Part shown: positions 1,183 through 45,549 of the stretch, piece after piece
Layout: each line of letters opens with the position of its first letter
How positions within the stretch are numbered: position 1 is the first letter of the stretch
NCBI RefSeq assembly: GCF_041261205.1
Contig: NZ_JBGCCH010000006.1
Span: 248,001 to 312,000 of the forward strand
DNA length: 64,000 nt
Direction: 5' to 3'
Origin: Catenulispora sp. MAP5-51
Lineage (GTDB): Bacteria > Actinomycetota > Actinomycetes > Streptomycetales > Catenulisporaceae
Made by a program: the position numbers and the translations under genes
The notes under the pieces: generated by a model
Database searches by the model: none
What the model saw: only the letters and a program-made list of their open reading frames with translations
Told to the model about the DNA's origin: nothing

Positions 1183-2013
1183 ATGACGCAAGCGGCCCCC
1201 AGCCAGACTTCCAGCCCGAGCCCGAGCCCGAGCCAGAGCCAGAGCCAGAGCCAGAGCCCGAGCCAGATTCAGAGCCAGAGCCAGAGCCCCGCCGCCCCGG
1301 CGCGCGACGCCGAGACCGAGGCCTGCCTGTTCGGCCACGGCGCCGAGGGTGCCTACGAGCAGACCCCGCGCACCACCGCCACGCGCTACCAGAGCCGCGT
1401 CGGCTACGACCGTGCCGCCGTCCACGCCGTCCTGGACGAGGCGCTGGTCTGCCACCTGGCCTACGTCCACGAGGGCGCGCCGGTGGCCCTGCCGACGGTC
1501 CACGCCCGCTCTGGCGACCGGCTGTACGTGCACGGCTCGACCGGCGGCCGCTTCGCGCGCCTGGACGGCCGGCAAGTGGGCGTGACCGTCACCCTCTTCG
1601 ACGGCCTGGTCCTGGCCCGCAGCTGGATGCACCACTCGATGGCGTTCCGCAGCGTCGTGATCCACGGCACGGCCCGGGTCGTCGCCGACCCCGCCGAACG
1701 CCTGGACGCCATGCGGGCCCTGATCGACCACATCGCCCCCGGCCGCACCGCCGAGTCGCGCGAGCCCACCCGCAAGGAGCTGGCGCAGACCGCGATCCTG
1801 GCGCTGGACCTGGAGCAGGTCTCGCTGAAGGCGCGCGGCGGCCAGGTCGCGGACGACGAGGAGGACCTGGCGCTGCCGTACTGGGCCGGGACGATCCCGC
1901 TCGCGGTGACCGCCGGCGTCGCCCAGCCCGCTCCGGACCTGCTGGAGGGCATAGCGATGCCGGAGTACGCGCAGAACTACACGCGCTCGCGTGCCTGCGG
2001 ATACGCGCATTGA
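1183..2013 (+). CDS. Pyridoxamine 5'-phosphate oxidase family (flavin-binding split barrel) protein
   Basis: This 276-residue protein starts at ATG 1183 with AGGA a few bases upstream. Residues 8-35 are a low-complexity Ser-Pro/Ser-Gln tract encoded by a hexanucleotide repeat and are probably disordered. The folded part begins near residue 60 (TTATRYQSRVGYDRAAVHAV) and matches the PNPOx-like nitroreductase/FMN-binding split-barrel family: LCHLAYVHEGAPVALPT-like segment, LYVHGSTGGRFARL, GVTVTLFDGLVLARS, MAFRSVVIHGTARVV. Such proteins bind flavin, heme or F420, and the substrate cannot be told from sequence. Its divergence from a MocR regulator suggests that regulator controls it. The family is typically about 210-240 residues, so the extra length is the N-terminal tract. 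Confidence 0.85.
   Translation: MTQAAPSQTSSPSPSPSQSQSQSQSPSQIQSQSQSPAAPARDAETEACLFGHGAEGAYEQTPRTTATRYQSRVGYDRAAVHAVLDEALVCHLAYVHEGAPVALPTVHARSGDRLYVHGSTGGRFARLDGRQVGVTVTLFDGLVLARSWMHHSMAFRSVVIHGTARVVADPAERLDAMRALIDHIAPGRTAESREPTRKELAQTAILALDLEQVSLKARGGQVADDEEDLALPYWAGTIPLAVTAGVAQPAPDLLEGIAMPEYAQNYTRSRACGYAH
1213..1290 (+). repeat. GAGCCN hexanucleotide tract inside the PNPOx-like gene
   Basis: A run of about 13 hexamers, mostly GAGCCC or GAGCCA, encodes alternating Ser-Pro and Ser-Gln. The unit is a multiple of three, so gain or loss of copies would change tail length without a frameshift. Confidence 0.85.
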
Positions 2014-2061
2014 GGTATCGGCTGGAATGCTGAGGCCCGGCGGGTCCCGCGCACCGGGATC

Positions 2062-2103
2062 CGCCCGCTCAGGTCCGCCTGCTCAGGTCCGCCCGCTCAG
2101 GTT
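2062..2103. repeat. Three tandem copies of a 14-bp unit
   Basis: CGCCCGCTCAGGTC occurs three times head to tail with one or two substitutions (2062-2075, 2076-2089, 2090-2103). It lies in the 125-bp gap between the convergent PNPOx-like and thiolase genes. No coding role is visible. Confidence 0.8.
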
Positions 2104-2138
2104 CGAGCGCTCGGCGCCGACAGCCCAGGCCCGCCGCC

Positions 2139-3425
<1,287 letters not shown>

Positions 3426-3445
3426 CTACTGCGCGGGGTGATCCG

Positions 3446-3637
3446 TCAGCAGCCGCAGGCTCCGCCACAGGCGCAGGAGCCGCCGCTCTGACAGCCGCAC
3501 TTGCAACCGCCGCCGCAGCTGCAGCTTCCGGCCTCCGGTTCCAGGACGACGATCGGCAGCGCCCGGCTCTCGGCGGGCGTCGGCGGCGTGCCGTCCGACG
3601 GGCTCTGAGGGACTTCCGACAATGACTGCTTTGCCAT
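3446..3637 (-). CDS. Small protein with Gly/Cys-rich CxC tail (metallothionein-like or RiPP-like)
   Basis: A 63-residue protein starts at ATG 3637 behind a very good ribosome binding site (AAGGAGGCGCT). The first 37 residues are ordinary and acidic/Pro-rich. The last 26 carry nine cysteines in Gly/Ser, arranged CxC-x3-CxCxC-x5-CxC-x3-CxC, and end with Cys at the C-terminus. There is no signal peptide. Repeated CxC pairs suggest metal binding in the manner of bacterial metallothioneins. A modified-peptide precursor with a leader ending near VVLEPEAG is an alternative, but no YcaO or radical-SAM gene is nearby. I do not recognise a named family. It is flanked by thiolase and a GNAT gene on the same strand, with a hairpin terminator after it. 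Confidence 0.75.
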   Translation of the reverse strand: MAKQSLSEVPQSPSDGTPPTPAESRALPIVVLEPEAGSCSCGGGCKCGCQSGGSCACGGACGC

Positions 3638-3800
3638 AGCGCCTCCTTCGCTGGCGGCGGGCCGGGTGGCGCGGCGGGGATCCGCCACAAGCCGCCAATG
3701 CCGCCGGTTTCCAGTCAAAAGGGAGATCTGCCCCGGGTCAATGGGCGGTCGGCACACGCCACCCGGGGCGCCAGGGGGCGCGCGGGGGTGGATCAGGCCT

Positions 3801-4319
3801 CTACCGCGCCCCGGCCAGCGCGACTCCTGCCGCCGCCGGCAGATACGTCGTTCCGGAGAAGTCCCACCCGGCGATCACCTTGCGGTAGTGGAACAGCTCT
3901 TGATCCGGCGCCGTCCTGGTGCGCGCGTATTCGCGGTAGCCGGCGGCGGTGCACAGGCGCTGGTTCTCCCACATCATCGCGTGGGTCAGGAGCCTGAGCT
4001 CGGGCAGCCAGAGCTGGCGGGCGTGCTCCTCGGCGAAGGCCAGGACGCGGCGGCCGATGCCGCGGCCCTGCAGGTCCGGGGCGACGGCGAAGTTGTCCAC
4101 GTGCAGCCAGCCGTCCTCCGGGACGAGGGTCACGGTGGCGATGGCGGGGCTGCCGACCACGAACAGGCAGCCGCGGCGCATCAGGTGCGGGTAGTCGGCG
4201 TCCATCGCGGCGGGCCGGGAGCCGATCCGGTCGACGTAGTGACGGTAGGCCGAGTGGGTGACGGCGTGGACCGCCGCGAGGTCCACCGGCACCGCGTATC
4301 GGACTCCCAGCGGCTGCAT
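3801..4319 (-). CDS. GNAT family N-acetyltransferase
   Basis: This 172-residue protein carries the GNAT acetyl-CoA binding motif A (VDNFAVAPDLQGRGIGRRVL, the Q/RxxGxG/A loop) at about residues 92-111, with a following EEHARQLWLPELRLLTHAMMWENQ segment (motif B). It would transfer an acetyl group from acetyl-CoA to an unknown amine. The start at ATG 4319 is chosen because AAGGAGAGG lies just upstream; an in-frame ATG 51 nt earlier has no ribosome binding site. The last 25 residues are not conserved. No neighbour points to a substrate. Confidence 0.85.
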   Translation of the reverse strand: MQPLGVRYAVPVDLAAVHAVTHSAYRHYVDRIGSRPAAMDADYPHLMRRGCLFVVGSPAIATVTLVPEDGWLHVDNFAVAPDLQGRGIGRRVLAFAEEHARQLWLPELRLLTHAMMWENQRLCTAAGYREYARTRTAPDQELFHYRKVIAGWDFSGTTYLPAAAGVALAGAR

Positions 4320-33335: not shown

Positions 33336-35258
33336 TCAGCCGAACAGTTCGCCGAGCACGAATTCGTCACGTCGGCCGTCGCCCCATGTTGCGACCAGAC
33401 ATTCGCCGGTCACTGCGACGGTGACTGGGATGGTGACGGGGACGGGGCCCGCCGGCGCGCTCCGCCCCAGCCAGTGCGCCGAGACGTAGACCGTCGGCAG
33501 TCCGGGCACCGGCTCGGCCGTGAGATACGGCGCGGCACTGTGCTCGCCGAGGGCGTTGGCGCCGTGGAAGCGGGCGATGCCGGAGCCGGTCCAGCCGTGC
33601 AGCGGTACGAGCCGGACCGCCACCTCGTCGCCGCGCACCGATGTTCCCTCCACGACGGGTTCGGTGGCGCCCGCGACCGCGAATGATCCCTCGCGGACAG
33701 TCCAGCCTGGCGGCGCCGTCACCAGATGGGCACGCAGCTCAATCCCCTGATGCAGCACCGACACCGACACCACCCGAGCCCCCGGCACATCGACGCCACC
33801 CATGCGCGGCCGGTACCACGACGCGGCCCAGCCCTCGCCGGTCGCGGTGCCCCGCAATCCCTCCCGGCGGGTCGCGCGCCCCCACTCGTCGACCAGCGCC
33901 ACCTGCCCGTCCACCCCGGCGGTCCAGGCATCGCCGACGCCGGGCGCGGTGTGCGTGGAGGAGCCGATCGAGGCGTAATGCGGATCGCCGCTTCCGGTGT
34001 CCGGATCGACGACGTGGTCACTGGCGTGGTTCGCGATCTGCACCACACCGTCGCCGGAACGGATCACCCAGCCGACGCCATGCAGAGTCCTGACACAGTC
34101 GCCGCGCTCCGAGGGTTGCGGCTCCTCGGCCTCGGTCCACAACGGGTGGTCGGCCGGGGCGGCCAGTCCCAGAAACCCCATCCCCGCGAAGTACGGCGAA
34201 CCGGGACCGCTGTAGACCTGGCACATCGGCAGGAACTCCGCGGCGCCCCACCCCAACGACGGCGCGGCCCCGCCCCCGCCGACCCCCGAATCCACCGTGA
34301 ACCGCCGCAACACACCACTGGCCAGCCGCCGTCTGGCCCCCGCTGCCTCGCTTCCGACACCGGCCAGCGCCGCGGTCCACAACCCGCCCAGCACCGCCTG
34401 CCGATACGTCAGCGAACGCCCCTGAAACAGCGGCGATCCGTCGGCGGCGAACAGCAACGCGTACGAGTCGGCGAACTGGCCCAACCGCCCGAGGTACCGC
34501 TCCCGCCGCTCCGCAGGCTGCTCAGAAAGCTGATACCACTGCCACAGAAACGGGTGGATGACCCACGAATTGTAGTGATCGACCCGGTTCCCGTGCCGCG
34601 TCGTCGGACTGACCGGCCCGTCGTTGAACCAGCCGTCCCCCAGATACCAGGACTCGAACAGGTCCACGTCCTCCTGGGCGTGCCCGCCCGGCACCTCGTA
34701 CCCCGCCGACCGCAGGAACGCCTCGATGACCGCCGTGAACAACAGCCAGTTGTTGTCCGATCCGTGCTTGGCCGCGTGATGCGCCAGCCACTCGGCGGTC
34801 TGCTCGCGCAGCTTCTCGTCCAGCCGGTCCCACACCTGCGCGCGGCAGACGGCCAGCCCGAAGGCGAGGTTCGCGGCCTCCACGATCGGCTGCGGGGTGC
34901 CGTTCCACTGCCGGATCTCGTCGACCCCGATCGCCCGGCCCCACCGGTCGGGCCCGTCGGGCGCCATCGCGGCGGCCAGGCCGCGCGCGTACCACCCCGC
35001 GTGGTCGTGCGGGTCGTCGAGCCGTCCGGCCAGCAGCGGCGCGGCTGTCAGGAAGCTGCGGGCGAAGCCCTCGATCCCGTCGCTCCGGATCCCGGCCGCC
35101 GACGGCCGGCCCGGCGGCGTGATCAGGCCGCCGCCGGGGGAGGCGTGGCGGCGGGCGGTCAGCAGCCAGTGGTCGGCCACCGCCTCCCAGTGCGCTCGCG
35201 TCCAGCCGGTGAAGGGGGACAGGACACGGTCTTCCGGCGGCAGGCGCGGGTCGTTCAT
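33336..35258 (-). CDS. DUF2264 domain protein (GH154-like, putative glycuronidase/hydrolase)
   Basis: A 640-residue protein without a signal peptide. The N-terminal two thirds match my memory of DUF2264, an (alpha/alpha) barrel family, some members of which have been assigned to glycoside hydrolase family GH154: GIEGFARSFLTAAPLLAG, EIRQWNGTPQPIVEAANLAF, NWLLFTAVIEAFLRSAGY and YNSWVIHPFLWQWYQL. The C-terminal third is beta-rich. It is the last gene of the minus-strand glycan operon, 14 nt after the ROK gene, so it probably processes an oligosaccharide inside the cell. Substrate is not determinable. Confidence 0.8.
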   Translation of the reverse strand: MNDPRLPPEDRVLSPFTGWTRAHWEAVADHWLLTARRHASPGGGLITPPGRPSAAGIRSDGIEGFARSFLTAAPLLAGRLDDPHDHAGWYARGLAAAMAPDGPDRWGRAIGVDEIRQWNGTPQPIVEAANLAFGLAVCRAQVWDRLDEKLREQTAEWLAHHAAKHGSDNNWLLFTAVIEAFLRSAGYEVPGGHAQEDVDLFESWYLGDGWFNDGPVSPTTRHGNRVDHYNSWVIHPFLWQWYQLSEQPAERRERYLGRLGQFADSYALLFAADGSPLFQGRSLTYRQAVLGGLWTAALAGVGSEAAGARRRLASGVLRRFTVDSGVGGGGAAPSLGWGAAEFLPMCQVYSGPGSPYFAGMGFLGLAAPADHPLWTEAEEPQPSERGDCVRTLHGVGWVIRSGDGVVQIANHASDHVVDPDTGSGDPHYASIGSSTHTAPGVGDAWTAGVDGQVALVDEWGRATRREGLRGTATGEGWAASWYRPRMGGVDVPGARVVSVSVLHQGIELRAHLVTAPPGWTVREGSFAVAGATEPVVEGTSVRGDEVAVRLVPLHGWTGSGIARFHGANALGEHSAAPYLTAEPVPGLPTVYVSAHWLGRSAPAGPVPVTIPVTVAVTGECLVATWGDGRRDEFVLGELFG

Positions 35259-35272
35259 GAGAGCGGTGGTCC

Positions 35273-37448
35273 TCAGGGCGTGCGGCGCAGCCGCGGGGTG
35301 AAGGTGGAGTGGAAGATGGTCGACGCGGCGCCGACCGCGACCGCCTCGCTGCTGTTCACCGAGCGCTCGACGCGGATGCGGCGCAGCCGGCGCGCGGTCG
35401 GGTAGGCGTTGACCGCGTGCTCGATCTCGGTGAGCCACACGTCCGCCACCTCTCCGGTGAAGAACGGCCCGCCGACCACCACCAGCCCGACGTCCAGCAG
35501 GTCGATCACCGACAGCACGCCCCGGCTGACGGCCTTCGCCGCCTGCTGCACGGTCAGCCGCGAGCGCTGCCGCCCGAGCGTGCGCGGCTGCTGGTCCGAG
35601 GGCGCGTGGCTCGGGGCGTAGCTCGGGGCGTAGCTCCCCGGGTTGCACTCCGGGAGGATCTCGGGCCGCCCCGACGCGTCGAACCGGCCCAGCGTGACCG
35701 CGCAGAGCTGGCCGAACTCGCCGGCGTTGGCCGTCAGCCCGCGGTACAGGTCGCCGTTGAGGAACAGCCCGGTCCCGACGCCGGTCCCCAGATACAGGTA
35801 CACGAAATCGCAGGCCCGGCTGTCGCGCCCGATCCAGCGTTCGCCGACCGCCGCCGCCGAGCAGTCCTTCTCGATCACGATGCGGCAGGAGAAACGGCGT
35901 TCCAGCAAGGTGCGCAGCGGTACGTCCCGCAGCACCGACATCAGCGGCGGATCGAGCACCGTCCCGGAGACGGTGTCCACCGGACCGGGGGTGGCCACGC
36001 CGATGCCGAGGAAGCCCTCCTCCCACCGGCCGTGCCCGGCTTGTTCGAGCACTGTCTCGCCCAGATCGGCGATCTGCGTCACGACCGCGCCCGGCCGCGG
36101 GTCGGAGGTGATCGGCTCGGACCGCCTGGCGACGACCCGTCCGGACAGATCGACCAGGACCGCCGTGAGCACGTGCGGGTCGATGTGGATGCCCAGCGCG
36201 TGCGCGGCGCCGTCCCGCAGCCGCACCGGGCTGCTCGGCTTGCCCACGGCCGAATGCCGCTGCCGCTCCTCGACCAGCAGGCCGCGCTGGATCAGCGAGC
36301 GCGCGATCCGCGACACCGACTGCTGCGTCAGCCTCGTCCGCTCGGCGATCTCGCCGCGCGTGATCCGCCCGGCCAGCCGCACCGTCTCGATCACGACGCA
36401 CTCGTTGAACGAGCCCAGGTCGATCTGGTTGGCCCCGCCGCCGGTCGCCGGACCCGAATGGCCCGGCGCGGGGAGCGGAAGCGTCGGCGGCGCGGCCGAC
36501 GGTGCCGGCAGAGGTTCGCGGATCCACCGCACGCGGGCCGGATCCGGGCTGTCGACGTAGCGTGACAGAACCGAGGCCACGTCGAGCAGTACGCGCGTGG
36601 AGGACTCCGGATGCCGGGCGGCGTCCAGGGCTAAGACGGCGCGCGTGAACGACAGGCTGGTGGTCCGTTCCGGCGGTTGGTGGACTGTGATCCCCAGATG
36701 GGAGCAGCGTTCTGCGATCTGGATCTGTAACGGCCGTGTGGTCGAGGGCTCGGCGCGCAGGATTACGGCGTGCAGTTCCGGCAGCGGATGCGTTCGGCGT
36801 ACCGCGTCCAGGAACGGGCCGACGGAGTCGAGTTCAGGGTTCGGACCGGAACCGGCTGTGGGCGCCGCCGCCTCAGTCTGCGCGGCGGCCGTCGCCTCGA
36901 CGAGCGCGTTCCCGACAGCGGCCAGCGCGTACGGATCCACCGCCGGCTCGGCCGAGGGCGGCGGGACGCTGGCGACCGAGCGCCCCGCCAACACCAGCAC
37001 CGTGCAGCCCGCGTCCAGATGCAGTCCGACCGGCCACAGGTCGCTGGGCTCCAGCGCGGGCACCACTGGGATCTGCGGGACGGTCAGCCGGCTCCCGGTC
37101 AGGTTCCAGCGGTGCCGCGTCTCGGCGACGACGGTGTGCGAACAGCCCAGGCGCCGGGCCACCATCCGCGAGGTCCTGGCGTCCGGCGTGGACGTCAGGA
37201 TGCTCGCCACGATCTCGCCCTCGTCCACCGCCGACGGACGCCCGGTGCGGGCCCGGTCCAGCAGCCCGTCCAGGCCCTCGGCCGCGTATCGCTTGCGCCA
37301 CGTGCTCACCGTCTGCCGCGAGACGCCCAGGCGCCGCGCGATGTCCGCGTTGCGCAGGCCCTCGGCGGCCAGCAGCACGATCGAAGCGCGCAGCGCCTGC
37401 TGGCCGTCGCCGTCGGCCCACCGGCGCAGCACCGAGTGCTCGGGCAGG

Positions 37449-37456
<8 letters not shown>
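35273..37456 (-). CDS. ROK family regulator fused to a degenerate IS630-type transposase domain
   Basis: A 727-residue protein of unusual build. Residues 20-120 contain two HTH motifs in the IS630/Tc1 order (ALRASIVLLAAEGLRNADIA with VSRQTVSTWRKRYAAEGLDG, then MVARRLGCSHTVVAETRHRW). Residues 139-310 follow the IS630 catalytic domain layout (WPVGLHLDAGCTVLVLAGR, ELHAVILRAEPSTT, HQPPERTTSLSFTRAVLALD), but the DDE residues are replaced (expected VDEK is LAGR, LDNY is LRAE, VERWF is TRAVL). Residues 345-727 are a standard ROK repressor: HTH GEIAERTRLTQQSVSRIARS, then LGIGVATPGPVD and YLGTGVGTGLFLNG. The ROK zinc motif CxCGxxGCxE is absent. The start codon overlaps the GH38 stop by 8 bp, so it is coupled and likely regulates this locus. 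Confidence 0.88.
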
Positions 37457-40580
<3,124 letters not shown>

Positions 40581-40642: not shown

Positions 40643-42934
40643 TCAGCCGGCCGTGGACAAAGTCACGCTGCTGACATACAGGGGCTTGGTCGGGTCGGTG
40701 ACCGCCAGGCGCAGGTCGGCCGACAGGTTCTGCAACTCGGCGAACTGCACGTTCGTCAGCGTCACCGTCGCGGTCTGCCAGCTTCCGGTGCCGCTGCCGG
40801 CCACGGTCGGCCCGCCGAAGTACGGGGCGCCGGGGGAGTCGTACTGCACCTGGAATCCCTGACCGGCGACCGACCAGTAGGTGACGTTCGCCGTCACCGT
40901 CGAGGCCTTGGCGACCTGGCTGGACGGATCGAGCTGCAGGTAGACGTTGGCCGGCGTGACGCCGCTCTGCGCGGAGGTCCAGGTCTCATAAGCGGTCTGG
41001 CCGTCCTGCGTCACCTGGGTGAGGTTGCCGTCGCCGCCCAGGCCGGTCGCGCCGACCGACAGGAACAGCAGGCCGCCGCCGCCCTGCCCGGCGGTGCCAG
41101 TGACGGACGTCGCGCCGCCGCTGGACGACGGGCACTGGTCCGGGACCGGCGTGCCGGCCGGCGCCGCGCCCGGCAGCATCGACCACTGGTCGAGCTGCGC
41201 CGACTTCATCGCGACCGGAACGCACAGGCTGCCGTCGGCCAGCACCTTCTGCGCCGGAGCCTGGCCGGTCAGCGCGTCCACCACGTGGTACGTGCCGGCG
41301 ATGAGGTTCAGGCCCTTCGGGTGCAGCGTGACCGAGCCGGTGTAGCCGAAGCTCGGGCTCACCTCGCCCAGCGTGATCTGGGCACTGCGATGGTCCGCGG
41401 CGGTGGCCGGGACGACCTGGAGCGCGTGCTGGCTGGTGAGGTCGGCGTAGGCCGGCGCGTAGGAGGCGAGCTGGGATCCGTTGCTGAGTACCGTTCCGCC
41501 TGCCTTCTGGTACGCGGCGATGTTCGCGTCGGAGCCGTTCATCGGCAGCACGGCGCGGTAGTGCGACAGGCTGTCGGCGTGGTTGGCGATCTCCTCGCTG
41601 GTGACCACGGAGAAGCCGGCCTGGTAGCCGTCCCACAGAGCGGTCATGTCGTTCTCGACGTTGTTCAGGCTGCCGCCGGCGTCGTTGCCGCGAGCCTGTG
41701 AGTAGTCGATGTAGACCGCCACCGGCTGCGTCGGGAACGAGCCGGACAGCTTCTTCAGCTGCGGCAGCCAGGAGGTGTAGATCGGGTAGCCGATCACGTC
41801 CTTGCTGGTGCCGTCGTGGATGAAGAAGTCCTCGCCGCCGCCGTACGGCAGCGTCATGGCATACATCGACAGCCAGTTCGTGGCCTCGGCGGGGATCTGG
41901 TCGTCGGTGCCGAACACGGTCCACTCCTGCGCGACCGGGACGTGGTACGCCCGGCCCAGGCTGCCGAACAGCAGGCTCAGGCCCGCGGAGTTGGCGGCGT
42001 CCTCCACGACCGTGGCGTGGTACTTCCTGGCCAGGTTGAAGAAGATGTCGGGCAGGTTGCCCAGCTGCGGGGCGTTGGCGATGTGCCCGCCGAAGTAGTA
42101 GAAGAGCGGCCCGTCGCTGACCTTGCGCACGGCCGCGGTGAGGCGGTCGTACGTGTCCTGGACACTCCACTGGCGGAAGGCCTGGTAGACGCTGTCCAGA
42201 GGGGCGCCGGGGAGCGCGGCCGGCACCTGGCTGAACGACGTGTACGTGGTCCCGTACTTGGTGTTGAAGGCATTGATGGTCTTGTAGGTGGCCGGCAGCC
42301 AGGTGTTCTGGAAGTACGCGATGTCCGCCGGCGCCCAGCCGCCCACGCCGGGACCGTCCAGCCACTGGGCGTCCAGGTGGCCGTAGTCCATGAACGAGCC
42401 GCCATAGGCCGGGTTGTGCGTGACGTGCGCGACCGTGGCGGTGACGTAGGCGAAGTAGTCGTTCTGCTCGGTCTGGTCCCACCAGGCCAGGGCGACGCCG
42501 GTGGCGCCGGTGCTGGTCACCTCGTGGTCCGTCTCGAACGTCGCCGGGCTGCCGCCCCAGCCGGACTGCCAGAAGATCGGCACCAGCTTCACGCCGGCGG
42601 CCTTGGCGTTGGCGAGTTCGGTGTCCAGCTCGGAGAAGTCGAAGGTGCCGCGCGCCGGCTCCAGCTTGGACCACGGCATGTTGAGCTCGGCGCGGTCGAT
42701 GCCCTTGGCCTTGACGGCGGCGAAGTCCGCCGTGGACCACGGTGTTCCGTTGTTGTCGAACTGGAACTGCGAGGCCCAGTAGTCGGAAGTGGGGGTGGCG
42801 TGTGTTGTCGTTGCCGTTCGCGGTGCCGTTGCGTGTGCTGGTGCGGGGTCGGCGGTCGCATATTGCGCGACGAACACACTGGCGGCCAGGCCGCACAGCA
42901 GCGGAATCGCTCCGCGTCGAACCGTGCGCAGCAT
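40643..42934 (-). CDS. Secreted glycoside hydrolase, GH42-like barrel plus C-terminal beta domain
   Basis: A 763-residue exported protein. The signal peptide runs through residues 1-29 (PLLCGLAASVFVAQYATADP). Residues 50-400 look like a TIM-barrel of the GH42/GH35 type (KAKGIDRAELNMPWSKLEPA with GTFDFSELDTELANAKAAGV, then KLVPIFWQSGWGGSP), followed by a domain resembling a beta-galactosidase trimerisation domain and a C-terminal beta-sandwich from about 640. The catalytic glutamates cannot be placed with certainty, so the family is not fixed. RBS GAAGGGGG precedes ATG 42934. It would release sugars outside the cell for the divergent ABC operon. Confidence 0.8.
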   Translation of the reverse strand: MLRTVRRGAIPLLCGLAASVFVAQYATADPAPAHATAPRTATTTHATPTSDYWASQFQFDNNGTPWSTADFAAVKAKGIDRAELNMPWSKLEPARGTFDFSELDTELANAKAAGVKLVPIFWQSGWGGSPATFETDHEVTSTGATGVALAWWDQTEQNDYFAYVTATVAHVTHNPAYGGSFMDYGHLDAQWLDGPGVGGWAPADIAYFQNTWLPATYKTINAFNTKYGTTYTSFSQVPAALPGAPLDSVYQAFRQWSVQDTYDRLTAAVRKVSDGPLFYYFGGHIANAPQLGNLPDIFFNLARKYHATVVEDAANSAGLSLLFGSLGRAYHVPVAQEWTVFGTDDQIPAEATNWLSMYAMTLPYGGGEDFFIHDGTSKDVIGYPIYTSWLPQLKKLSGSFPTQPVAVYIDYSQARGNDAGGSLNNVENDMTALWDGYQAGFSVVTSEEIANHADSLSHYRAVLPMNGSDANIAAYQKAGGTVLSNGSQLASYAPAYADLTSQHALQVVPATAADHRSAQITLGEVSPSFGYTGSVTLHPKGLNLIAGTYHVVDALTGQAPAQKVLADGSLCVPVAMKSAQLDQWSMLPGAAPAGTPVPDQCPSSSGGATSVTGTAGQGGGGLLFLSVGATGLGGDGNLTQVTQDGQTAYETWTSAQSGVTPANVYLQLDPSSQVAKASTVTANVTYWSVAGQGFQVQYDSPGAPYFGGPTVAGSGTGSWQTATVTLTNVQFAELQNLSADLRLAVTDPTKPLYVSSVTLSTAG

Positions 42935-43137
42935 CAGTTCCCCCTTCAGGGGTTTGCAGATGGCGGGTGGTTTGGTTTCCTCCAGGACACGCGCCGTCGG
43001 CGACGTGAGGGGTATGTAACTCCAAGAGTGTTAGTCCGACAAGGCTTCTCACTGAAGCCCCGTTGTGAACCGCGCTGATCTGCACAGATGCCAGTTGAAG
43101 ATCATTGCTTTAGCGGTTTTCCTTGTCAGAGAAGTCT

Positions 43138-43184: not shown

Positions 43185-43206
43185 TCGGGACACCTCCAGG
43201 ACTTCG

Positions 43207-43231
43207 TCACACCGCTGTGAACGCGGTGTGA
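43207..43231. promoter_or_regulatory. 9-bp inverted repeat in the leader of the ABC operon
   Basis: TCACACCGC-TGTGAAC-GCGGTGTGA, perfect arms with a 7-nt centre. It lies about 16 nt after the predicted transcription start, a position suitable for a repressor operator; an RNA hairpin is the alternative. Confidence 0.55.
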
Positions 43232-43275
43232 AGCCCGTCGGCCGTGACCTCCCAACTCTTCTTCGAGGAGCCGTC

Positions 43276-44646
43276 ATGGCCAGAACAACACCTTTGCAAT
43301 CAGTGGGTTTCCGCCGCGCTTTCGCGGCGCTCGCCGCCGTGCCGCTCTCCGCAGGTCTGGCCGCCTGTGGCAGCAGCAGCGGAAGCGGGTCGGGATCGTC
43401 GCAGACGCTGACCATCGCGATGTGGACGAACCCGGCCGCGGTCGCCCAGACCGAGAAGGTGAACGCCGAGTTCGAGAAGCAGCACCCCGGCGTCAAGATC
43501 AAGATGCAGACCGCGCCGACGGCCGGCAACGCGTGGCCGACGCTGTGGCAGAGCCTGGTCTCGGCCAAGAGCGTGGACGTGCTCGCGCAGTTCCCGCCGA
43601 CCCCGCACGCCTATCCGCCGGCCTCGACCGGCATCATCCCGCAGGGCACCCCGGCGCTGATCCAGTCCGGCCAGTTCGTGGACCTGTCGAACCAGCCGTT
43701 CATGAAGCGCTTCGACCCGGCCGCGCAGAAGTACGCCATGGGCTACAACAACGGGACCTACGGCGTCATGACGGCTGAATATGTCAACAACTCCGGCATG
43801 TTCTACAAGAAGGACCTGCTGACCAAGTACGGCCTGTCGGTCCCGACGACCTACAGCGAGTTCATCAACGACATGGACGTCCTGAAGTCGAAGGGCATCA
43901 CGCCGCTGTATGTGGCCGGTAAGGACGGCTACCAGAGCATCGCGTGGTTCGGCATCATGAACCAGCTGCTGATGCAGGACAAGCCGAGCACCGACGCCCC
44001 GGCGGTGTGGGAGAAGCGCGCGCAGGACTTCTGGAACGGTGCCCAGAGCTGGACCGATCCGGTCTACGCCGACACCGCGAACCGGTACGAGAAGGTCCTG
44101 TCCTACATGGAGCCGAACGCCGCGGGTGTGCCTGCGCAGTCGGCTCCGGGAGTCTGGGCCGCCAAGACCAACGACTTCCCGTTCTTCTTCGACGGCTCCT
44201 ACGACGGCAACACCATCGCGCAGTCCAACCCGGGCCTGAACTTCGGCTTCATGGCGCTGCCCGGCGCCGACGACGCCGCCGCGAACCGCGCCGTCCTGGC
44301 GCCGGACCTGTCCTGGGTGGTCCCGACCTGGTCCAAGCATCAGCAGCTGGCGATGGAGTGGCTGGACCTGTTCACCCAGCCGGACAACTACGCGGCGTGG
44401 CTGAAGGCCACCGGATCGATCTCCACCGAGCCGGCGGTGCCGACGCCCGCGCTGTCCTGGACCGACTGGCTGTCCACGCACGCCTCGCAGGGCTTCGTCA
44501 ACGCCGAGCAGCCCTGGACGTCGACCAAGTTCCCGACGGCGGCCGGCGACCAGGACCGGACCAAGATGCAGCCGTTCGGTTCGCAGACCCCGGCCCAGGC
44601 GCTCAAGGAATCGGCGGACGCTTACAAGTCGGCAGTGGGGCACTGA
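43276..44646 (+). CDS. Sugar ABC transporter substrate-binding lipoprotein
   Basis: A 456-residue family 1 solute-binding protein. The signal peptide ends at the lipobox GLAAC (Cys31), and the mature chain begins GSSSGSGSG. Typical features are LTIAMWTNPAAVAQTEKVN, FEKQHPGVKIKMQT and the late PDLSWVVPTWSKHQQLAMEW. It binds an oligosaccharide outside the membrane and passes it to the two permeases that follow. RBS GAGGAG precedes ATG 43276. The permease start is 3 nt after its stop. Confidence 0.93.
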   Translation: MARTTPLQSVGFRRAFAALAAVPLSAGLAACGSSSGSGSGSSQTLTIAMWTNPAAVAQTEKVNAEFEKQHPGVKIKMQTAPTAGNAWPTLWQSLVSAKSVDVLAQFPPTPHAYPPASTGIIPQGTPALIQSGQFVDLSNQPFMKRFDPAAQKYAMGYNNGTYGVMTAEYVNNSGMFYKKDLLTKYGLSVPTTYSEFINDMDVLKSKGITPLYVAGKDGYQSIAWFGIMNQLLMQDKPSTDAPAVWEKRAQDFWNGAQSWTDPVYADTANRYEKVLSYMEPNAAGVPAQSAPGVWAAKTNDFPFFFDGSYDGNTIAQSNPGLNFGFMALPGADDAAANRAVLAPDLSWVVPTWSKHQQLAMEWLDLFTQPDNYAAWLKATGSISTEPAVPTPALSWTDWLSTHASQGFVNAEQPWTSTKFPTAAGDQDRTKMQPFGSQTPAQALKESADAYKSAVGH

Positions 44647-44649
44647 CCT

Positions 44650-45549
44650 GTGAGCACCATCCCCTTCGGCACAAAGCGGACACGGCGGTGGCTGCCCTGG
44701 GCCTCCATCGCCGTGCCCTCCATCGGCTGGCTGGTCTTCGGGTTGTTCCCGTCGGTGTCGACGGTCTTCTTCTCCTTCACCGAGTACTCCGGCTTCCCGG
44801 GCACCCCGCTGCACTTCTGCGGGTTGTGCAACTACAGCAACGCGTTCAACAGCTCCTGGTCCGACTTCTCGGCCTCGGTGGTCGTGACGCTCAAGTACGT
44901 GGCCGGGGTCACGGTCCTGCAGATCGCGATCGGCCTTGGACTCGCGCTGCTGCTGCGCCACCGACGGCACGGATTCGGGCTCTACCGCGCCCTGATCTTC
45001 ATGCCGCAGGTCTTCTCCGTGACCATCGTGGGCGTGCTGTTCTCGCTGGTCTTCGACCCGCAGAACGGCCCGGCCGAGCCGGTGTACCACGGGCTGTTCG
45101 GCTCGACGAGCGCCTTCCTGGGCGACCAGAGCTGGGCCCTGTGGCTGGTCATCATGATCAACGTCTGGATGTTCAGCGGCTACACCATGCTGGTCTACAT
45201 CGCCGCGCTGCGGCGGATCCCGCCGGAGCTGTACGAGGCCGCCTCGCTCGACGGCGCCGGGCGCCTGCGGACGTTCCGCCACATCACCTGGCCGCTGCTG
45301 GCGAACGCCACCACGGTGAACGTCTTCCTGACCGCGATGGGGTGCGTCGGCGAGTTCGCGCTCATCAGGGTCCTGACGGACGGCCACTACGGCACCAAGA
45401 CGCTCGGCATGTACATGTTCGACACCGCGTTCGGCGTGAACCCGTCGCTGGGCTACGGCTCGATGCTGGCGGTGGCGCAGTTCGTGATCACCCTGGTGAT
45501 CGGCAGCGCTCTGCTGGTCTTCCTGCGCCGGCGGGAGGTGACGCTGTGA
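44650..45549 (+). CDS. Sugar ABC transporter permease (MalF-like)
   Basis: A 299-residue inner-membrane permease with six helices and the ATPase-coupling EAA loop (YEAASLDGAGRLRTFRHITW, residues about 196-215). It starts at GTG 44650 and its stop overlaps the next permease by 4 bp. There is no ATPase gene in the operon, so a shared MsiK-like ATPase probably energises transport, as for other actinobacterial sugar importers. Confidence 0.93.
   Translation: MSTIPFGTKRTRRWLPWASIAVPSIGWLVFGLFPSVSTVFFSFTEYSGFPGTPLHFCGLCNYSNAFNSSWSDFSASVVVTLKYVAGVTVLQIAIGLGLALLLRHRRHGFGLYRALIFMPQVFSVTIVGVLFSLVFDPQNGPAEPVYHGLFGSTSAFLGDQSWALWLVIMINVWMFSGYTMLVYIAALRRIPPELYEAASLDGAGRLRTFRHITWPLLANATTVNVFLTAMGCVGEFALIRVLTDGHYGTKTLGMYMFDTAFGVNPSLGYGSMLAVAQFVITLVIGSALLVFLRRREVTL

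Follow-up and report, generated by a model that had tools for sequence, protein, structure and literature searches.

Within the window analysed here, a 64,000-nucleotide stretch of the Catenulispora sp. MAP5-51 genome (contig NZ_JBGCCH010000006.1), one minus-strand gene of 727 codons, starting at 37456 and closing with a stop codon at 35273-35275, encodes a ROK-family protein preceded by a long N-terminus related to insertion sequence transposases. The account favoured here, and held with good confidence, is that an IS630 (Tc1/mariner-type) transposase was captured by a ROK-family, presumably sugar-responsive transcriptional regulator, which gained from it a second DNA-binding module. Domestication of the transposase part is supported; with its double helix-turn-helix (HTH) and GRP linker kept, and its aspartate–aspartate–glutamate (D-D-E) triad and apparently the β2–β3 part of its core lost, this part could bind DNA and should not cut it.

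A transposase-type DNA-binding module on a complete ROK repressor

Residues 21-107 match the Pfam models HTH_29 (E 2.5e-19), HTH_23 (1.2e-16), HTH_28 (1.1e-15) and HTH_32 (5.8e-9), and the bipartite HTH of the IS630 family is recovered by Pfam, by profile alignment and by PDB profiles alike. The NCBIfam IS630 transposase model is matched with E 3.7e-19, yet at 69-70 bits against a cut-off of 100; Pfam PAX, searched on residues 1-340, matches the first HTH alone (E 2.2e-4, 21.6 bits against a gathering threshold of 22). SETMAR, Pax, Prd and Sleeping Beauty carry Tc1/mariner DNA-binding domains or domesticated descendants of them. With a profile of 43 fused N-termini (the window protein and 42 of 44 fused loci from the scan described below, L123 and L127 being left out for their long inserts), the best PDB matches are SETMAR (2.3e-5), Pax5 (6.4e-5), Pax8 and Prd, with Pax6 (0.0012) and Sleeping Beauty (0.014-0.015) further down, each spanning one HTH or parts of two. 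The same 43 sequences share 28 invariant columns, 23 of them within residues 10-117, and an AlphaFold model of residues 1-345 contains seven helices in the DNA-binding half. By these sequence criteria, residues 19-118 are identified as a paired-type double HTH of IS630/Tc1-mariner transposases.

The C-terminal half, described in a preliminary account of this DNA as a complete ROK repressor with its own HTH (residues 345-727), proved to be just that, with Pfam MarR_2 at 358-401 (E 2.7e-12) and ROK at 421-711 (E 3.5e-25; 89.5 bits against a curated cut-off of 22.9). Searched alone, this half matches MarR_2 at 359-401 with 35.4 bits against 27, adjoining the ROK domain, and is also matched by the NagC and Mlc models. 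The zinc motif of ROK proteins is CxCGxxGCxE; by eye it is absent from the fused protein, where the corresponding stretch reads GEFGQLCAVTLGRF...ILPECNP, and from the unfused sister proteins examined, and the kinase phosphate motif is not seen in the fused sequence.

A probable decayed catalytic core

Between the two DNA-binding units lies a region whose similarity to the IS630 core is carried by profiles. The IS630 layout earlier proposed for residues 20-310 is borne out by the HTH models and by a blastp comparison with L034, an intact IS630 transposase in which Pfam finds DDE_3; residues 21-301 aligned at 28.9% identity. In hhalign, the profile of the 43 fused N-termini matched that of 12 selected IS630 transposases over 297 columns with probability 100, the HTH part dominating; without that part, 99 columns aligned with probability 70 (E 4e-5). 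Comparison of the middle region with columns fixed on the first sequence gave probability 79.6 and a score of 41.2 over 161 columns, where the best of 200 column shuffles reached 18.2 and the reversed profile 12.9. The segments VGLhLD..VLVL, FLdaVrrtHP..LHaV and H.pP...F follow one another in the order of the IS630 core.

In a joint alignment of these two sets, all 12 IS630 enzymes carry D, D and E at the catalytic columns, and none of the 43 fused members has the full triad. The first column holds R in 34, E in five, G in two, D in one and S in one; the second holds no D (36 L, six gaps, one V), many members showing D two places beyond; and E is missing throughout the third. The window protein reads R, L and R, and the context changes earlier proposed (VDEK to LAGR, DNY to LRAE, VE to TR) reappear in this alignment, which supports the loss of catalysis claimed with them. 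The AlphaFold model of residues 1-345 is confident (predicted local distance difference test, pLDDT, 86.9; predicted template modelling score 0.75) and has strands at 139-147, 151-159, 227-235 and 256-260 with helices between them; a predicted helix at 175-197 stands where IS630 enzymes have β2–β3, strand equivalence being read from the alignment. Alignment and model together suggest that the β2–β3 part of the RNase H core is lost, and since the glutamate is missing and this part appears replaced, catalysis by the fused protein is very unlikely. Residues 161-210 vary in length among relatives and are rich in Ala, Gly and Pro in several. In the fused protein of one congener (L023, 8209-10518, minus strand, G008), a Gly/Ala/Phe repeat occupies the stretch that matches window positions 36827-36976.

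Searched against 350,542 chains with Foldseek, the model of residues 1-345 has no match at E 0.001; the Mos1 mariner transpososome ranks first (E 2.4e-3, TM-score 0.15), followed by transposases of CRISPR-associated transposons (CAST) and IstA, with Pax/Prd at ranks 5, 7 and 8, all with low TM-scores. A viral structure library likewise gave no match at E 0.001, those named in its list being mostly HTH proteins. From the profile similarity and the weak structural match it follows that residues 139-312 are best taken as descended from an IS630 core, a remnant whose fold has since drifted.

Conservation and selection

Homologues with the same fusion, which had been suggested as a check, were found at every level sampled. 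When 84,980 species were scanned by pattern and the best 80 of 96 loci kept, 44 loci proved fused (HTH half in frame) and 31 unfused, five being set aside (L100, L122, L161 and L173 at contig ends; L130 with a broken frame). Fused loci occur in Catenulispora, Actinospica, Streptacidiphilus, Actinacidiphila, Streptomyces and Nonomuraea, and unfused loci in Kribbella, Glycomyces, Phytomonospora, Microbacteriaceae and one species labelled Streptomyces. The fused L130 (10001-11790) also has its GH38 match in two pieces and may be a pseudogene or a sequencing error.

Within the genus, the fusion is present in seven of ten genomes (the source genome, G001, G002, G004, G006, G008 and G009; the G002 copy is split by contig ends), and the three genomes without it are 77-90% complete. 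At order level, all 19 ROK matches with E<1e-100, window included, are fused (18 of 391 genomes); 18 align over their full length, and their frames measure 705-833 residues save one of 543, cut by a contig end. The 26 weaker ROK matches listed have E-values from 5.7e-62 upwards and 33-43% identity; their frames measure 402-552 residues in 25 cases and 1,499 in the other, and the 12 inspected begin close to the ROK half. The 10.9 Mb source genome (G000) carries one full copy, its only other match at E<=0.001 covering 48 residues (E 8.8e-5), and the several copies that mark a mobile IS630 element are not seen there for the fused protein.

Ratios of non-synonymous to synonymous substitution rates (dN/dS), computed in six Catenulispora, are 0.055 for the HTH pair, 0.012 for the winged helix (the lowest of the protein), 0.066 for the ROK domain and 0.090 for the linker; within the core remnant they are 0.048 (residues 121-160), 0.247 (161-210, the highest of the protein) and 0.177 (211-312). 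Purifying selection on the DNA-binding parts is strong. More distant pairs, with larger dS, give 0.23-0.45 for the HTH and are not relied upon.

Locus linkage, candidate operators and proposed mechanism

The gene overlaps the end of a GH38 α-mannosidase gene by 8 nucleotides (37449-37456), and the association claimed in the preliminary description extends well beyond the window: among the retrieved sequences, whose lengths vary between loci, 40 of the 44 fused loci include a GH38 gene and none of the 31 unfused ones does. A second set, of 17 loci plus the window, overlaps the first and is not independent of it; GH38 accompanies 16 of these 18 fusions, L089 and L092 being without it. In two genomes (G629 and G519), a second ROK gene with 34-35% identity to the ROK half lies between the fused ROK and GH38 genes (L086, 5520-6563; L087, 9642-10676).

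Candidate operators were sought in the intergenic region between the GH42-like gene and the divergent transporter. Two copies of CCTCCAGGAC are retained there in seven Catenulispora (Table 1); Actinospica has one identical copy, with CCTCCAGGGC at the place of the second, and Streptacidiphilus/Actinacidiphila have shorter variants. The CTCCAAGAGTGTTAGT block occupies the spacer between the likely -35 and -10 elements, placed by eye, of the GH42 gene; CCAAGAGTGTTA is identical in seven Catenulispora and five Streptacidiphilus/Actinacidiphila loci and differs by one change in Actinospica. Extended to 16 nucleotides, this block is matched nowhere else in the genome with two mismatches or fewer, and twice with three mismatches (12 times for the reversed control). 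Promoter spacers between -35 and -10 normally drift; the CTCCAAGAGTGTTAGT core is conserved across genera between the elements so placed. Both the CCTCCAGGAC copies and the CTCCAAGAGTGTTAGT block are candidate operators. The 8-mer CCTCCAGG/CCTGGAGG, with seven occurrences in the window, two of them in this intergenic region, is not supported as a family-wide operator: CCTCCAGG occurs 0.187 times per kb in the 44 fused loci and, at a similar density, 0.156 times per kb in the other 36, among which the five loci with contig cuts or a broken frame are counted.

ROK repressors combine a sugar-sensing half with a winged helix that sits on a promoter operator. For the fused protein, we infer the DNA targets, dimer bridging, the sugar bound and a repressing role, in preference to an activating one, as follows: a ROK dimer would bind a promoter operator through its winged helices, and a mannoside-derived sugar binding to the ROK half would release it from DNA. 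The two transposase-derived arms would meanwhile grip extra sites in or near the divergent promoter between the GH42–GH38–regulator genes and the transporter, where they may raise affinity or bridge both promoters, as transposase dimers bridge transposon ends.

Alternative explanations

Several observations weigh against the account of a captured transposase now serving regulation. With the HTH excluded, the hhalign probability of the middle region is 70-80, and Foldseek with the core remnant alone (model pLDDT 86.3) finds no RNase H relative, its best E of 0.66 disqualifying that search as proof of the fold. GH38 was not found in the fetched DNA of the fused loci L102, L118, L126 and L175; two of the unfused loci used for comparison are shorter than 9 kb; and because the classes form two plus one clades, the contrast between fused and unfused loci amounts to between one and three evolutionary events. 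Beyond Catenulispora and Actinospica, the CCTCCAGGAC copies persist only as the shorter variants, and neither candidate operator is assignable to the transposase-derived domain. The structural negative, together with the absence of any Pfam family up to E 1 on residues 139-340 alone, is what favours a reading in which only the HTH pair is transposase-derived and residues 139-312 form a sensor or dimerisation domain of other origin, similar to a dead core in appearance only; we judge this improbable, as the blastp alignment with an intact IS630 enzyme continues to residue 301, the middle-region score is more than twice that of the best of 200 shuffles, and the segment order agrees with that of IS630 cores. 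Of what the preliminary description had expected, then, core similarity at 139-310 stands by profiles and fails by structure search on the domain alone, and the separate Pfam search it proposed places HTH models in 1-340 and ROK in 340-727 with nothing in 139-340. Given the negative structure search on the remnant, the case for a transposase core rests on sequence profiles. A neutral fossil, decaying as a passenger while the ROK half regulates alone like its unfused Kribbella and Glycomyces relatives, would account for the existence of unfused sisters of about 400 residues and for the fast evolution of residues 161-210; it is distinctly improbable in view of an HTH dN/dS as low as that of the ROK domain, the clustering of invariant columns in the N-terminal module, and the persistence of that module in several genera and in both deep clades. 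That the fusion is an artefact of sequencing or assembly, or that an insertion sequence has recently broken into a ROK gene, has practically negligible probability: nothing but one broken-frame fused locus elsewhere (L130) speaks for either, and the fusion recurs with conserved flanking genes in many independent assemblies, the single-contig genomes G004 and G713 included, which disposes of the objection of a sequencing error raised at the outset.

How often the fusion arose is a further matter. In ROK trees, a fused clade B of eight Streptomyces falls outside a group made of the unfused clade and the window's fused clade A, with support 94 (18 of 31 unfused loci used) or 99/98 (12 of 31 used), which would fit two separate fusions, one in clade A and one in clade B, of transposase modules and ROK genes that were themselves related. 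We regard this as somewhat unlikely. An approximately unbiased (AU) test does not reject A and B as one clade (p 0.089), and N-terminal modules of A and B group together at 100/99 in a tree with fewer fused rows than the larger one and with several IS630 rows, L050 among them, left out; in the larger tree their grouping has a support of 72/48, and L050, an odd row labelled IS630, lies near both. A single fusion with later loss in the unfused clade fits as well, and there may have been one fusion with loss, one without loss, or two fusions, all of them compatible with the data. The fused N-termini group with an IS630 subgroup (L031, L033-L036) and stand next to a stand-alone degenerate IS630 family (support 78/99, not starred); one shared domestication of the stand-alone, GntR and ROK families gives AU p 0.41.

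Features and neighbouring genes

Table 1. Coordinates of the fused gene, its parts, neighbouring genes, candidate operators and other IS630-derived genes.
Feature	Sequence	Coordinates	Strand	Basis or context
ROK repressor gene with IS630-derived N-terminus	Window	35273..37456	-	Single open frame, 727 aa; relatives keep fusion
Residues 19-118, bipartite paired-type helix-turn-helix, RxGRP linker	Window	37103..37402	-	Pfam and PDB profile matches
Residues 139-312, putative degenerate IS630 DDE (RNase H-like) core remnant, catalytic residues gone	Window	36521..37042	-	blastp, hhalign, model
Residues 161-210, fast-evolving stretch at expected β2–β3 place	Window	36827..36976	-	Lengths, dN/dS, model
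Residues 313-342, Pro-rich linker, remnant to ROK half	Window	36431..36520	-	Low pLDDT from residue 321; alignment
Residues 343-415, winged helix-turn-helix of ROK repressor	Window	36212..36430	-	Pfam MarR_2; dN/dS
Residues 416-727, ROK sugar-sensor domain	Window	35276..36211	-	Pfam ROK E 3.5e-25
GH38 α-mannosidase gene, directly upstream	Window	37449..40580	-	Pfam Glyco_hydro_38N 2.8e-91, 38C 3.1e-51
GH42-like glycosidase gene, first of same-strand run	Window	40643..42934	-	Pfam Glyco_hydro_42 1.5e-9, partial, 49 residues
DUF2264 gene, next downstream	Window	33336..35258	-	Pfam PF10022 3.9e-95
Divergent ATP-binding cassette (ABC) transporter, solute-binding protein and first permease	Window	43228..45549	+	SBP_bac_1 4.7e-14, BPD_transp_1 7.9e-20
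Candidate operator CCTCCAGGAC, near GH42 start	Window	42979..42988		Kept in 7 Catenulispora and Actinospica
Second CCTCCAGGAC copy, just past likely transporter -10 placed by eye	Window	43193..43202		Kept in 7 Catenulispora
CTCCAAGAGTGTTAGT block, candidate second operator, spacer of likely GH42 promoter	Window	43020..43035		Cross-genus conservation
IS630–GntR/FCD fusion	L192 (G732)	1854-3893	+	Pfam
IS630–GntR/FCD fusion	L214 (G533)	1203-3041	-	Identity to L192
HTH pair joined directly to GntR-FCD, no core, 368 aa	L193 (G182)	1549-2652	-	Pfam
Stand-alone degenerate IS630 protein	L197	5510-6568	+	Adjoins AMP-ligase, major facilitator superfamily (MFS) transporter and polyketide synthase starts, by eye
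Stand-alone degenerate IS630 protein	L198	5649-6713	+	Adjoins AMP-ligase, MFS transporter and polyketide synthase starts, by eye
Stand-alone degenerate IS630 protein	L199	5144-6043	-	Adjoins AMP-ligase, MFS and polyketide synthase starts
Stand-alone degenerate IS630 protein	L200	4801-5838	-	Adjoins AMP-ligase and MFS transporter starts, by eye
Stand-alone degenerate IS630 protein	L030	9519-10397	-	Adjoins AMP-binding gene, fifth genome

Other IS630-derived families

Two further kinds of degenerate IS630 protein were met in the samples searched, where both the GntR/FCD and the stand-alone families are small. In L192, IS630 HTHs and a degenerate core precede GntR and FCD domains by Pfam, and L214 has the same layout at 49% identity over 599 residues; their catalytic columns read D, G, E and T, H, R. 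Searched against 293 genomes of the order, a result in which its own source G732 does not appear, the GntR half of L192 has two matches, a full fusion in G533 and a frame-broken one in G532. L215 is a frame-broken copy of this fusion in a third genome. The shorter L193 type was rejected as a broad family: among 335 genomes of the class it is full length in its source genome alone, while in seven others the match covers the GntR half and begins no earlier than residue 94. Ten long-frame HTH loci (L186-L195) were likewise examined as fusions, of which eight look by eye like transposase genes whose frames are long or shifted, leaving L192 and L193 as the two regulator fusions.

Stand-alone degenerate IS630 proteins have one match each in G034, G479, G468, G707 and G612, and four of these are the ones in L197-L200 (Table 1). 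The neighbours in L199 show, by Pfam, ketoacyl synthase, docking and AMP-binding domains, and the G034 copy adjoins an AMP-binding gene. Their cores, changed and for the most part shortened, are at different stages of decay at the catalytic columns (D, N, E in L179; G, D, D in L178; P, G, A in L176), and L177 and L180 both keep D, D, E, though with 53 residues between the aspartates in place of 82, so that residues alone do not make every member dead; the shortened core suggests that the family is inactive, and its members are possible cluster regulators. That streptomycetes and their relatives have repeatedly made regulators from decaying IS630 transposases (stand-alone, GntR/FCD and ROK), with the transposase arm as a second DNA-reading head bridging promoters, a bacterial parallel to Pax, is marginally on the probable side. 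The stand-alone proteins would in that reading adjoin biosynthetic (polyketide synthase or AMP-ligase) genes, and the parallel would extend to eukaryotic host–transposase fusion transcription factors.

Relation to known systems and significance

With ROK repressors such as NagC and Mlc, the fused protein shares the winged helix, the ROK domain and a carbohydrate locus; it differs in some 340 extra transposase-derived N-terminal residues and in the lack of visible zinc and kinase phosphate motifs. With IS630 transposases it shares the bipartite HTH, the GRP linker and the order of core segments, whereas its triad is lost, its β2–β3 part apparently replaced, its score below the NCBIfam cut-off, and its gene single-copy and joined to ROK. 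Host capture of transposase DNA-binding domains is a source of new eukaryotic regulators, and Pax and SETMAR are eukaryotic genes made from Tc1/mariner transposases; like them, the fused protein joins a paired-type DNA-binding module to another domain, but it is bacterial and IS630-derived, with a sugar-type repressor as partner. TldR, derived from inactivated TnpB, is RNA-guided, unlike this joining of a DDE transposase to ROK.

Among published cases, capture of a Tc1/Mariner HTH by F-box genes has been reported (PMC12062965), and TldR proteins are RNA-guided, phage-encoded transcription factors acting in bacteria (PMC13418256). Passages on co-opted bacterial transcription factors in one review concern Xre and ribbon-helix-helix (RHH) proteins from phages and toxin-antitoxin systems and not DDE transposases, and make no mention of IS630 (PMC8987985). 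The searches made of open-licence literature turned up no account of a bacterial IS630–ROK fusion.

Dozens of soil actinobacteria retain the chimera, in most cases next to genes for enzymes of mannose sugars, and its origin resembles that of Pax and SETMAR. With three predicted helix-turn-helix units per chain, its DNA reading could be dissected module by module. Intact transposases, shortened-core stand-alone proteins, dead-core fusions and unfused ROK relatives coexist as sister states, and since these states are still visible, the steps of domestication are testable in soil bacteria.

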